From NCBI GenBank assembly GCA_003963305.1, contig RXJR01000028.1, positions 124,001 to 188,000 on the forward strand: a stretch of DNA of 64,000 nucleotides, written 5' to 3'. Positions 34,688 through 41,472 of this stretch are shown one piece after another. The translations under genes and the position numbers were made by a program. Under the pieces are notes generated by a model. That model did not search any database. It saw only the letters and a program-made list of their open reading frames with translations, and was not told the origin of the DNA. Source of the DNA: Candidatus Melainabacteria bacterium. GTDB lineage: Bacteria > Cyanobacteriota > Vampirovibrionia > Obscuribacterales > Obscuribacteraceae. Position 1 is the stretch's first letter, and the number at the start of each line of letters is the position of its first letter.

Positions 34688-35215
34688 ATGGCAATAATGA
34701 TAAGCAAACAACTACGAAAAGCTCGGCAACACGAAAAATCTATTGTCATGCCAACGCTGTCAATATCAGGTGGATTCTTATTCCTTTTGTTTGAAACTAG
34801 ATTTGAACACCGGGCTGTGCTCACTGGTGACTGGCAGCCGTGGATACCAATCATAATGTCTGGTGCGATGGTCTTATTACTACCCCTTGCAGGCGTCTTT
34901 TGCGCCGGAGGAGGGAAAAGAATGCTGACAATAGTCTACTCACTAACAGTAGCGCTCGGTGTGCTGGGGGTGTACTTTCATAGCGAAGGACATTTTTTCG
35001 AGAGGCTTGCTGAGCTAGTAAAGGTATGGTTGGTCAATGTTGAAGACGGCGCAAAAATTGCTTCGCCCCACCCACCACTCCTGGCACCGCTGGCATTTGT
35101 TGGGCTCGGACTACTGGGACTATTCTCAATCTTTGACACTTTCAAGTGCAATTGCCAACATGACCATGACTCGATTACCGCTCCTGCAAACGCACAGGTG
35201 ATTGCGAAGCCATGA
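34688..35215 (+). CDS. Membrane protein in the ECF sigma operon
   Basis: A 175-residue inner-membrane protein starting at ATG 34688, with GGGAG 9 nt upstream. Four hydrophobic segments are seen (SISGGFLFLLFE, WIPIIMSGAMVLLLPLAGVF, MLTIVYSLTVALGVLGVYF, APLAFVGLGLLGLFS). The pattern FHSEGHFFERL falls between the third and fourth. The C-terminal tail holds FKCNCQHDHDS, a Cys/His cluster that could bind copper or zinc. Its stop overlaps the ECF sigma start by 4 bp. It may be the sensor or the stress target of the sigma system; this is inferred from its position. Confidence 0.7.
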   Translation: MAIMISKQLRKARQHEKSIVMPTLSISGGFLFLLFETRFEHRAVLTGDWQPWIPIIMSGAMVLLLPLAGVFCAGGGKRMLTIVYSLTVALGVLGVYFHSEGHFFERLAELVKVWLVNVEDGAKIASPHPPLLAPLAFVGLGLLGLFSIFDTFKCNCQHDHDSITAPANAQVIAKP

Positions 35216-35790
35216 AGTTTTTCAGAAGCAAACGAAAACAGTTTGAAGAACTGACCGGGCAATTCAGTCAGGATATCTATCGACTGGCATTATGGCGGCT
35301 TGCCAATCGACAAGATGCGGAAGATGTCGTGCAGGACACTTACCTGCGTGCATTTCGTTCATTTCACACTTTTCAAACAGGTACTAATACAAAAGCTTGG
35401 CTGACAAGAATTTGTCTGAACGTTATCAACGATACTTTGAAGAAAAGGATTCGACAACCGGATACGGTGACACTCGAATCTGAAAACGACGAATTGGAAT
35501 CTTTGCAAAGCCAATCGCAGTCGCTTCAAGATCCGGCAGTTCAGCTAGCCTCGAACGAATTCGATCCACATTTGTTGAGAGCATTGCAGAAACTGCCTGA
35601 GTCTCTGCTTTATCCACTATTGTTGCGCGAAATCGAAGAGTTAAGCTACGAAGAGATCGCTGCAGTACTTTCCATCCCCACTGGCACAGTCATGTCCAGA
35701 TTGTTCAGGGCGCGAAGAATTGTCCGAGAAAGATTGACTGAACCCGCCCAATCGCTCACAAAACAGAGGTTCGCAGACGATGAAATGTAG
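35212..35790 (+). CDS. ECF-family RNA polymerase sigma factor
   Basis: A 192-residue sigma-70 of the extracytoplasmic-function class. Region 2 is DIYRLALWRLANRQDAEDVVQDTYLRAFRSFHTF with the TKAWLTRICLNVINDT segment that follows. Region 4 is LPESLLYPLLLREIEELSYEEIAAVLSIPTGTVMSRLFRAR, a typical helix-turn-helix. The two are joined by a Gln/Ser/Leu-rich linker. It overlaps the genes on both sides (4 bp and 11 bp), so sigma and anti-sigma are made together. It should direct transcription of an envelope or metal-stress regulon that may include the divergent operon. Confidence 0.93.
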   Translation: MKFFRSKRKQFEELTGQFSQDIYRLALWRLANRQDAEDVVQDTYLRAFRSFHTFQTGTNTKAWLTRICLNVINDTLKKRIRQPDTVTLESENDELESLQSQSQSLQDPAVQLASNEFDPHLLRALQKLPESLLYPLLLREIEELSYEEIAAVLSIPTGTVMSRLFRARRIVRERLTEPAQSLTKQRFADDEM

Positions 35791-36544
35791 TGAAGCACTG
35801 CCACTTTTAGATTTGTTGTACGACCAATTGCTGGAAACAAAAGACTCGGCACTTGTGATCGACCATCTTCAAAACTGCGTCAATTGTCAGGACGAATGGG
35901 AGAGTATGGAAGATCTGAAACGGCGATTCAAGGCGGCAAAAAAGAACACAACTATGCCGCCAGAGCTTGTGGAGAAGATTTCACTGACTCTCAGACGAGA
36001 TGACATATCGACACTGCTACGCACTTCCTCTCGTCAATTCCCGTTAGTTGGAATAGCTGCATCGATTCTCATCCTGGGCTGGATAGTTGTACCGCAGCTA
36101 ACAAGTCCAAACGGGGAACAACGAACGCAAATTACTGCGAGCCATTTATCAGCAACAAAACTGATAAATAGTCTCACCACTGATGGTGCTGTGCATCGTG
36201 AGCCGAATAAGCAATTGTTGAATGAAAAACTTGGTTATGAACCAAAGTACATTCCCCTTCCTGAATGGAAAATGGAATCTTCTGGAGTATACACTGACGC
36301 TGCCAATATCGCCCGTTTTGACTTCGTCAGAAACGATAATCCCAACCAGCACCTCAGCTGTTACCAGGCCATTGAAGGAACCATAATCGCCTCCGGATCT
36401 GTGCAAAACATAGGTGGTAAGCAAGTAGTCTTGGGCACAGAATCTGGATATCAGTTTGCCAAATTTACTCAGAATGGGCGTGATTATCTATTTGTCACAA
36501 AGTTGCCGACAACAACGCTAGAAGAGATTATCAGAGGTGCCTGA
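35780..36544 (+). CDS. Zinc-binding transmembrane anti-sigma factor
   Basis: A 254-residue protein. The N-terminus has the ZAS/zf-HC2 pattern of anti-sigma factors: HLQNCVNC (H-x3-C-x2-C, near 28-37) after a helix LPLLDLLYDQLLE. One membrane helix (about 92-113, VGIAASILILGWIVVPQL) is followed by a 140-residue periplasmic domain ending in VTKLPTTTLEEII. It should hold the ECF sigma at the membrane until a signal is sensed outside. Overlap with the sigma gene (11 bp) supports the pairing. The signal is unknown. Confidence 0.85.
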   Translation: MKCSEALPLLDLLYDQLLETKDSALVIDHLQNCVNCQDEWESMEDLKRRFKAAKKNTTMPPELVEKISLTLRRDDISTLLRTSSRQFPLVGIAASILILGWIVVPQLTSPNGEQRTQITASHLSATKLINSLTTDGAVHREPNKQLLNEKLGYEPKYIPLPEWKMESSGVYTDAANIARFDFVRNDNPNQHLSCYQAIEGTIIASGSVQNIGGKQVVLGTESGYQFAKFTQNGRDYLFVTKLPTTTLEEIIRGA

Positions 36545-38823: not shown

Positions 38824-39263
38824 CTTTGGTCATTCCGAGCTTCAGATTGATTTCTCAACCGACAAGGTCACAGATAAAGTGATTCGGCATCCAAAAGGTA
38901 TCCATGAAGTTATAGGTCAGTCGCAAGCAAGGTCCGAATCCAGGTTCCATGGACAATCTATGCCTCCATGACAAGACTATACCCATCAATATGGGACTTT
39001 TGGTTCCTTGACATCGCGACAGGATGCCGATGTGCGGTAGGCCCTGAAACCAAAACGACCGGAAGTTATATCTTCTCTATATCGGCTACAGGAGTGTTTT
39101 ATAGCGAAACAATATAGCTTTCCGGAACCTTTGAATCGATAACTTTCCCAAAAGCTTGGCATTCATTCCACCACTCGAAAAGCGCTTACCAAGCCAATCT
39201 TCAAGCGGAGAAAAAATTTCCTTAAATGAAAAATGGGGTACTAGCGCGTGGTGCCTGTCGGGC
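38824..39263. other. Intergenic region before the structured RNA
   Basis: About 440 bp between the minus-strand kinase gene and the RNA promoter. It should contain the kinase promoter. No coding frame with a ribosome site and no clear palindrome was found. A TTGACA at about 39016-39021 on the plus strand has no partner -10. Confidence 0.35.
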
Positions 39264-39269
39264 TATAAT
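39264..39269 (+). promoter_or_regulatory. -10 box of the structured RNA
   Basis: A perfect TATAAT, preceded by GGC. No good -35 is seen at 16-18 bp, so the promoter may need an activator. The expected RNA start is near 39276-39278. Confidence 0.55.
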
Positions 39270-39282
39270 AAATACATCAACG

Positions 39283-39294
39283 GTGAGCACTCAC
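39283..39294. promoter_or_regulatory. Inverted repeat at the RNA start site
   Basis: GTGAG-CA-CTCAC, a perfect 5+2+5 inverted repeat, is centred about 12 bp after the expected start of the structured RNA, a classical repressor-operator position. It could also form a 5' stabilising hairpin. Confidence 0.4.
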
Positions 39295-39447
39295 TTAAAT
39301 GTTGAGAGCTTTGAGCCGAGGGGCATTGCGGAAACGTCAGGTCGGCGCTGACCCGAAACCGTAGCAAGTAGCCCGATGCACATGACGGACTGACTGAAGT
39401 GTGCATAGATACTGAGTCCCGTCGAACGGACAGTCAGGCAGTAGCTT

Positions 39448-39485
39448 AAATACCACCGCGAAGCGATTCGGGTGGTATTTTTGTT
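39448..39485 (+). terminator. Strong Rho-independent terminator of the structured RNA
   Basis: AAATACCACC (39448-39457) pairs perfectly with GGTGGTATTT (39471-39480). Inside is a CGAA/TTCG extension closed by a GCGA tetraloop, with one bulged G. TTTTTGTTTT follows. Confidence 0.92.
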
Positions 39486-39624
39486 TTGGTTCCAATTACT
39501 GCTTCTGCATGAGCAGTTGACATGCATTGGCAAGCAAATGGCGCCAGAGTGTGGCTTGCATAGTCTCGGCACAATCGCAATCACGCACCAAATATGGTGC
39601 TCACAGACAGAGGAATAGTCGATC

Positions 39625-39837
39625 ATGTTCAAGAACAAAGAATCAGCCTATGAGCTTCACGAATTGTTGAAAGAAATTTGCCAGATCATCGATGAGGGTC
39701 ACGAGCTAGTCAACGAAGGCAAATTCACGAAGAAAGAACGTGAGTTGTACAACAAAAATATGGGCGAGATTCTCGGCAATCAACTGGGCGAACTTCTCAC
39801 AGAAATATGGGCGTCTCATCCTGAACTGCAACCCTGA
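39625..39837 (+). CDS. Small charged protein, unknown
   Basis: A 70-residue soluble protein starting at ATG 39625, with AGAGGA about 10 nt upstream. It is helical and strongly charged (Glu/Lys/Asn), for example YELHELLKEICQIIDEGHELVNEG and FTKKERELYNKNMGEILGN. There is one cysteine. No family is recognised. It lies 140 bp beyond the RNA terminator, so it could be the gene controlled by that RNA if read-through is regulated. A terminator-like repeat follows at 39870. Confidence 0.6.
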   Translation: MFKNKESAYELHELLKEICQIIDEGHELVNEGKFTKKERELYNKNMGEILGNQLGELLTEIWASHPELQP

Positions 39838-39869: not shown

Positions 39870-39923
39870 CGATTGTCAAGCTGTGCAATTCGTCTAGCAT
39901 GGTAGTTTGACAATCGCATTTTT
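39870..39923 (+). terminator. Long inverted repeat after the 70-aa gene
   Basis: CGATTGTCAA (39870-39879) and TTGACAATCG (39907-39916) are perfect 10-bp complements 27 bp apart, followed by CATTTTTG. It probably ends the 39625 transcript. The right arm also contains TTGACA, so an operator role for the next gene is possible. Confidence 0.5.
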
Positions 39924-39993
39924 GTGCGCACGCCTGTCTTCAGCAATGGGTGTGAATCAACAATATAAAAACATCCCTTCAACTGGAGGTCTG

Positions 39994-41472
39994 ATGCTTC
40001 TCGCAAAGCATTCTCCCGACGATGAAGCTGCGCCGCAGCATGATGACCATTCACATGAGGTAGTGCCCCTGCATGAACGGCGCGGTGCAGGCACTATGGG
40101 TCTGCTGTGGGTAACGATGGTGACGGCGTTTCCATCTGTTCTAATTGGCTTTCAATGGTTCAAGGAAGGTCTCACACTTTCGCAAGTTCTTATTTGTACT
40201 GCCCTGAGCTGCGCAATTTTGCTGGCATACTCCATTCCTGCAGCATATCTTGGTGCTGTAAGCGGACAAACCTACGGGCTTTTGAGCAGGCAGGTCTTCG
40301 GGCGGTGGGGCTCAAGACTTGTCTCCTGCAACTTATTGTGGATATTCATTGCCTGGTACGGTCTTACAGCGTTACTGTTAGCCGATGGACTGACCGGATT
40401 GTTCCACCTCAACGTTCCTGTCATGTTCCTGGCAGCCGCACTGGCAGTAGCAATGGCATTCAACAACTTCTTTGGATTCAGCGGTGTGGCCAACTTTGCC
40501 CGTTATCTGGCTGCACCACTATTGTTATGCATGGTCGGTTACACCTTCTTGAAAGTGGCGCCGACGTGTCCAACTACTGCACTGAATGCGGTATCGCAGG
40601 TGCCGATTATGACTGCACTGACATCAGTGTCAGGTTATGTCGTAGGATTTGCAGTATGGGGAAATGAGCCTGATTACTGGCGATATGGCAAACCAAACAA
40701 ATGGCTGGCGGCGCTGCCTTTGACTATTGCACTAGCGATCGGTCAGATCGTCTTTCCAGTTACGGGCTGGATGATATCCCGTCTCTCCGGAATCACTGAA
40801 TACGGTGCCGCGACAAGTTACATGAATAGCTACGCATTTGGCGGCATCGCCGCAGTTGCAGCCATCGTTCTGTCAGTTGCTTATTGCGCATCAAATGATT
40901 CAAACTTGTATGGAATGATTAACGCTATAGAGAATCTGAAAAAACTCTCCCACCACAAAGTCTGTGCCGCACTGGCGCTTATCTGTGCGTCGTTTGCCGC
41001 CTGGCTATCAACTGCTGGAATAGCCAAGTCACTCGAATCTATTGCATCGCTGAATTGTGTATTTTTACCGACCGTGACGGTAATCATGATAGCGGAGTTT
41101 TTCGTCGTCAAAAAATTGCTCGGGCAGGAAAATGATTTTTCTGCCGTTCCTGAATTATCATCTCTGCCTTCGATAAAGATTCCAGCCTTCGCGGCTCTCG
41201 TCATCGGTTGTACTGTAGGAGTTCTAACCTCTGGCGTTATTCCAGGTCTCGACTCTCTCCACGTTGGCGTCTGCTCCATTCAAGCGTGGCTTGCAGCAGC
41301 ATTTTCATACATTCCGTTGAGATTAATCGAACACAGACGATCAATCAGTCAGGCAAAAGTCTACTTCGAAGAACTGTTGTCTGAACAGATTAATCCGGAA
41401 CCGGCCAGGGAACTTTTGACGGATAGCATCCGCCGAAACCCTCATGGACGAATTCATACAGCCGATCGATGA
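39994..41472 (+). CDS. NCS1-like cytosine/purine permease
   Basis: A 492-residue inner-membrane transporter with about 12 hydrophobic segments. The start is ATG 39994, with GGAGGT 4-5 nt upstream; an in-frame codon 87 bp earlier has no such site. Residues 10-30 hold a His/Asp-rich cytosolic segment (DDHSHEVVPLHERRG). The following pattern, GLLWVTMVTAFPSVLIGFQWFKEGLTL, AAYLGAVSGQTYGLLSRQVFGRWGSRL and FGFSGVANFARYLAAPLL, fits the nucleobase-cation-symport-1 family (CodB-like). The ligand is not certain. It overlaps the acyltransferase-like gene by 29 bp. Confidence 0.8.
   Translation: MLLAKHSPDDEAAPQHDDHSHEVVPLHERRGAGTMGLLWVTMVTAFPSVLIGFQWFKEGLTLSQVLICTALSCAILLAYSIPAAYLGAVSGQTYGLLSRQVFGRWGSRLVSCNLLWIFIAWYGLTALLLADGLTGLFHLNVPVMFLAAALAVAMAFNNFFGFSGVANFARYLAAPLLLCMVGYTFLKVAPTCPTTALNAVSQVPIMTALTSVSGYVVGFAVWGNEPDYWRYGKPNKWLAALPLTIALAIGQIVFPVTGWMISRLSGITEYGAATSYMNSYAFGGIAAVAAIVLSVAYCASNDSNLYGMINAIENLKKLSHHKVCAALALICASFAAWLSTAGIAKSLESIASLNCVFLPTVTVIMIAEFFVVKKLLGQENDFSAVPELSSLPSIKIPAFAALVIGCTVGVLTSGVIPGLDSLHVGVCSIQAWLAAAFSYIPLRLIEHRRSISQAKVYFEELLSEQINPEPARELLTDSIRRNPHGRIHTADR

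Follow-up and report, generated by a model that had tools for sequence, protein, structure and literature searches.

Poplar-1 is an RNA family that is catalogued in Rfam (RF03041) without an assigned function. Its original description is reportedly that of Weinberg et al. in 2017; among the papers searched, none mentions poplar-1 or RF03041 by name. The nearest functional parallel is Yfr2 of the cyanobacteria, a sister class, which is a multi-copy small RNA (sRNA) acting on RNA targets (PMC6778093). Yfr2 occurs in several copies per genome at unconserved loci, has its own strong promoter, and in Prochlorococcus MED4 the motif of its regulator was found only at its promoters (PMC6778093, PMC2662882). 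Poplar-1, when examined for the same features, was likewise found in multiple copies at unconserved loci with its own promoter, and it has a motif that is apparently exclusive to its copies. However, Yfr2a of Synechocystis is ~80 nt long, whereas poplar-1, judged by its promoter and terminator, would be ~205 nt long, and it has a different fold, and no Rfam cross-match was seen. Furthermore, Yfr2 has an open conserved motif at its 5' end, whereas the conserved 5' GGU of GGUGAG in poplar-1 is paired in helix P0. The likeness would be one of gene organization, and common descent is not claimed.

The arrays in which poplar-1 is found also resemble those of integron gene cassettes, as both contain direct repeats in a single orientation separated by unrelated genes. 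In contrast to integrons, however, the repeats here are structured RNA genes, the orientation of the intervening genes is mixed (46 to 29), and no integron integrase (TIGR02249) was found above the cut-off in any of 40 genomes.

Identity and distribution

The locus described here lies in a stretch of 64,000 nucleotides from a Candidatus Melainabacteria bacterium (G000:C28:124001-188000), hereafter called the window, in which all positions without a prefix are given. When all Rfam families were compared with the whole window, a single match was obtained, i.e., poplar-1 at 39310-39448 on the + strand. It spans the full model (1-141 of 141; E = 2e-29 over the window) and exceeds the gathering score, by which membership is decided on the covariance-model score (Table 1). 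The matches to SpF10 and other sub-threshold families scored far under the cut-off and were taken as chance. The core helices P2-P6 of the RF03041 consensus structure are present, and they covary in the family alignment of this RNA. Judged by its sequence, the locus at 39264-39485 is one more copy of the already catalogued poplar-1. The preliminary description had called the RNA unrecognized, matching no common family, and had proposed a search with Rfam/Infernal; this search returned a significant match to a known family, and the claim was wrong. As the RNA is already in Rfam, its discovery is not new. While the Rfam model has the same core helices as the RNA studied here, it contains neither the 5' strand of P0, hairpin P1, the terminator nor the upstream region, and it does not describe the organization in arrays. 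The full length, the shared control region and the one-directional arrays between unrelated genes may be novel relative to the model; parts of these are perhaps already described.

The genome of origin (7.48 Mb) contains five family matches. Within the Ca. Obscuribacterales, poplar-1 was found in 47 of 53 genomes, 44 of them above the cut-off, with 1-14 copies each; since the other six genomes lacked a match, the RNA seems dispensable. In a phylum sample of 386 genomes, the genome of origin was the only one with a match, and none was found in 14 control genomes. A pattern scan of one genome per species (84,980 species) yielded 107 stretches, and among the matches listed the records are mostly metagenome-assembled genomes labeled Ca. 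Obscuribacterales, Ca. Melainabacteria or Cyanobacteria, with a few under other labels. One of the latter, a Corynebacterium record (L145), is not a true copy, as a profile search found nothing there. Poplar-1 thus appears to be found almost only in the Ca. Obscuribacterales, non-photosynthetic relatives of the cyanobacteria. Viral spread was considered and rejected, since a scan of viral contigs for the exact core pattern gave no match. A tree of 80 copies revealed shared loci as well as lineage-specific expansions, and many copies have their nearest relatives within the same genome.

Structure and covariation

An alignment of 88 copies with <92% identity was folded, and pairs were then counted against the proposed structure, including the pseudoknot. 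The structure comprises 54 pairs in 10 helices, and 96.8% of 4737 cells are paired, as compared with 82.2% in shuffles. Changes on both sides were found in 45 of the 54 pairs, which supports the nested stems for which the preliminary description had proposed a covariation check. Cells with such changes numbered 772, against 201 in shuffles, and the covariation score was 0.503, against 0.215 when shuffled. The values for slid controls were lower still (28-40% of cells paired; covariation score ≤0.088), but this control is biased in favor of the structure, which was derived from the same sequences; the compensatory changes are not explained by this bias. In folding stability, the strand beats 199 of 200 dinucleotide shuffles (z = -2.98).

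Both sides have changed in all seven pairs of P1 and in nine of the ten pairs of the terminator helix, and the outer pair of P0 occurs as C-G, A-U and G-C. The predicted pseudoknot is borne out by compensatory changes across the 88 homologues, with 91.3-91.6% of cells paired and both-side changes in five of six pairs. It is one of two alternative pairings that had been suggested for the loop at 39383-39399; the other, of 39387-39391 with 39415-39419, did not hold, as its middle pair is standard in 15% of the rows. The palindrome that had been noted at the start site is present. Other copies preserve it only in part (75.9% of cells pairable), as the right half falls within a variable hairpin stem. 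Most of the conserved unpaired bases belong to an internal loop that has two GAAAC motifs, and no long conserved unpaired seed was found outside this loop in the 88-copy alignment.

Table 1. Features of the poplar-1 unit and its downstream neighbor (positions in the window).
Feature	Position	Strand	Basis or remark
Approximate repeated unit (control region, RNA gene, terminator)	39105..39488	+	Inferred from alignments of same-array copies
Upstream region with conserved blocks	39105..39246	+	Profile of 105 copies
-10 box TATAAT	39264..39269	+	Sequence; box kept in copies inspected
Transcription start	Expected near 39276	+	Inferred
Palindrome GTGAG-CA-CTCAC	39283-39294	+	Sequence
5' domain (P0 and P1), mostly outside Rfam model	39281..39318	+	Covariation in alignment
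P0 CGGU/GCCG	39281-39284 with 39315-39318	+	Encloses P1; 99.7% of cells paired
Hairpin P1	39287-39293 with 39303-39309	+	91.9% of cells paired
Poplar-1 Rfam match	39310..39448	+	132.4 bits; gathering score 110.5 bits
P2-P3 region: P2, P2b, internal loop with two GAAAC motifs, hairpin P3	39321..39374	+	
P2 GGGC/GCCC	39321-39324 with 39371-39374	+	
Hairpin P3	39340-39345 with 39348-39353	+	
Hairpin P4 (region 39376..39406)	39376-39382 with 39400-39406	+	94.9% of cells paired
5' pseudoknot strand CUGACUG, in P4 loop	39390-39396	+	
P5 (region 39410..39443)	39410-39414 with 39439-39443	+	100% of cells paired
P6	39416-39419 with 39428-39431	+	98% of cells paired
3' pseudoknot strand CAGUCAG	39431-39437	+	
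Intrinsic terminator hairpin and U-tract, outside Rfam model	39450..39488; stem 39450-39461 with 39468-39478	+	99.3% of cells paired
70-aa protein gene, conserved neighbor, not part of RNA unit	39625..39837	+	Homologues in two congeneric genomes

Promoter, control region and terminator

The TATAAT box and the strong terminator (39450-39478, followed by a T-run) are present and conserved among homologues. In the copies inspected, a box resembling TATAAT, TATACT or TAAACT is located at the same place, and essentially every copy has its own -10 box, a GGGGTA element and a terminator. Thus, conservation in 88 diverged homologues bears out the description of the locus as a gene for a structured RNA that has a promoter, a pseudoknot and a terminator of its own. 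From the promoter and the terminator, a transcript of ~205-210 nt, running from ~39276 to 39485, would be expected. A simple promoter and terminator scan missed both elements, probably because of a weak -35 region and the interrupted stem of the terminator.

A profile of 105 copies revealed conserved motif blocks over ~170 bp upstream. Relative to the start of the Rfam match (39310), these are ATATnCGA near -200, GATCnnGCGCTTGTTAAT near -162, which is degenerate in this copy, and TTAAATn7GGGGTACT at -88 to -67 (39222-39242 here). GGGG[TG][AT] is found in a fixed position in 102 of the 105 copies. The exact motif TTAAATn7GGGGTA occurs four times in the genome of origin, three times at known RNA copies and once on contig C9, and matches with two mismatches were not above a reversed-pattern control. 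A role of this motif in a genome-wide regulon was dismissed, as every exact match coincides, or may coincide, with an RNA copy. The occurrence on C9 (G000:C9:545120-545140) is away from the five listed copies and perhaps marks a sixth copy that is cut by the contig end.

Arrays and neighboring genes

In the loci compared, the two copies of an adjacent pair always share their strand (52 of 52 pairs, 48 of them within 6 kb). Some of these pairs, being from related species, do not count as independent. Adjacent copies are separated by 275 bp to 10 kb, and gaps of intermediate size often contain a single ORF. A limitation is that metagenome assemblies break at repeats. Homology within arrays has a sharp right edge just past the terminator, at +173 to +190 from 39310 (median 178), and a left edge at approximately -205 (most between -165 and -240), which together define a unit of ~385 bp.

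L140 has a single RNA unit, flanked by a PALP-type gene and a giant gene, whereas at the same place in L044 two units flank a gene for a 362-aa protein. As far as the terminator, the unit of L140 resembles the PALP-side copy of L044; beyond it, the sequence runs on into the flank of the other copy, and the junction of this gene-plus-unit difference coincides with the unit's 3' end. The 362-aa L044 gene is located between two RNA copies, and so is each of two distant homologues in G442 and G443 (26-29% identity). The giant ORF beside this array encodes 2903 aa in L044 (L044:5144-13855) and is also present in L140. In the congeneric genome G002, the stretch from a PALP-type to an AlkZ-like gene contains four RNAs with three genes among them, and one more gene adjoins the first RNA; in the corresponding interval of G001, another congeneric genome, there are two RNAs with no gene between them. 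For one intervening gene of G002 (L039:5574-6749), no close homologue was found in G000 or G001, only matches of 27-29%. One array has retained the same genes in several species, and gene turnover therefore appears to be slow. Comparison of the RNA with its own flanking DNA gave a signal only on the upstream direct strand. This signal was attributed to neighboring array copies and, as there was otherwise none, the idea of a bridge RNA matching its own flanks was rejected.

ORFs of ≥100 aa were called by a simple procedure without a gene finder. On this basis, 63 of 105 copies share their strand with the downstream gene, and in the other 42 this gene is antisense. The 79 downstream proteins represent 66 Pfam families, the commonest being dUTPase with six members, and the upstream proteins are similarly mixed. 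This diversity argues against a shared cis target. A dUTPase-like gene is found downstream of poplar-1 in several genera (L024, L047, L068, L070, L121 and L148), and this may be a site that the RNA has long occupied.

Proposed function and alternatives

Together, the conserved structure, the promoter and terminator of its own, the unrelated neighbors and the presence of several copies are best read as those of a trans-acting RNA gene. With a probability of roughly 0.6, we consider poplar-1 to be a free-standing, multi-copy, trans-acting structured sRNA with its own control region, whose arrays are shaped by homologous recombination. The RNA would be transcribed independently from its own promoter behind the dedicated upstream region and be ended by its own terminator. 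It would then act in trans as a compact structured molecule, which is suggested by the lack of conserved neighbors. Its partner is probably a protein or another RNA, bound via the internal loop with the two GAAAC motifs and not via a long open antisense seed, since the concentration of conserved unpaired bases in this loop suggests protein binding or tertiary folding. Titration of CsrA/RsmA through a GGA in the P4 loop was rejected, as the GGA is missing from some copies. Gene dosage could be raised by maintaining several copies under a common regulator, and ordinary homologous recombination between the ~385-bp direct repeats would let the arrays acquire and shed intervening genes. A local effect at some copies is possible, given the bias toward co-directional downstream genes and the recurrence of dUTPase in several genera.

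A classic antisense sRNA, in which the GGAAAC-type loop pairs with mRNAs, would fit a free-standing sRNA with a U-tail, and the multi-copy sRNA of the sister class, Yfr2, has RNA targets (PMC6778093). We nevertheless regard this as unlikely, since there is no long conserved seed outside the internal loop and no Hfq was recognizable in three congeneric genomes. The preliminary description had likened the locus to a riboswitch or an antisense-controlled RNA. In such a riboswitch or attenuator, rival pairings of the loop at 39383-39399 would control the terminator and hence the 70-aa gene and a permease. A terminator does follow, the loop can pair with 39415-39419 in this one copy, and both genes are kept behind it in two congeneric genomes. 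However, this reading is largely refuted, because the rival pairing is not conserved (its middle pair is non-standard in 85% of homologues), the terminator is an independent hairpin that shares no bases with any conserved helix, and the next genes vary from locus to locus in identity and strand.

The arrays raise the question whether the unit is mainly a DNA-level recombination site that delimits gene cassettes as in integrons, the RNA being part of the process or its guide. The uniform orientation, the sharp boundary just past the terminator, the difference between L140 and L044 with its junction there, and the position of the inserted gene and its homologues between RNA copies all agree with this idea. 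Yet, it is distinctly unlikely: no integron integrase exceeded the cut-off in 40 genomes, the match of the RNA to its flanks does not exceed what nearby array copies would explain, gene turnover in some arrays is slow, homologous recombination between direct repeats accounts for these data as well, and covariation points to selection on a transcript. At still longer odds, the units might mark, and the RNA take part in, an integrase-independent head-to-tail building of gene arrays, in which each gene arrives with one unit and the junction is at the terminator end. Dispersed copies, lineage-specific expansions and closest relatives within the same genome could also indicate a non-autonomous mobile or selfish element that carries an RNA gene and spreads by transposition. 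This is very improbable, as orientation is never mixed in arrays, several loci are vertically conserved, including this one, and the structure is strongly constrained.

As the RNA itself was already catalogued, the importance of poplar-1 lies in its function. An RNA that is found throughout an order in up to 14 copies per genome, with one apparently exclusive control motif and a structure defined from end to end, offers a tractable target for such work, and its one-way arrays between unrelated genes pose the testable question of whether an RNA gene may serve as a homology anchor for gene exchange.

Genes near this copy

The neighbors of this copy, an LRR-bearing protein kinase and a Transp_cyt_pur permease, are the same in the genome of origin and in the congeneric genomes G001 and G002. 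The 70-aa protein encoded between the RNA and the permease has no Pfam match, and homologues with 87% and 67% identity are located at the same place in the two congeneric genomes. Hence, copies are inherited in place within a genus. The permease ORF (39907-41472) is listed from a TTG codon, but translation seems more likely to begin at an ATG near 39993 that has a GGAGG before it. At 35212-36544, a gene for an ECF-like sigma factor of the sigma-70 family is followed by a protein gene, possibly for an anti-sigma factor, and both are conserved beside the same kinase in G001.
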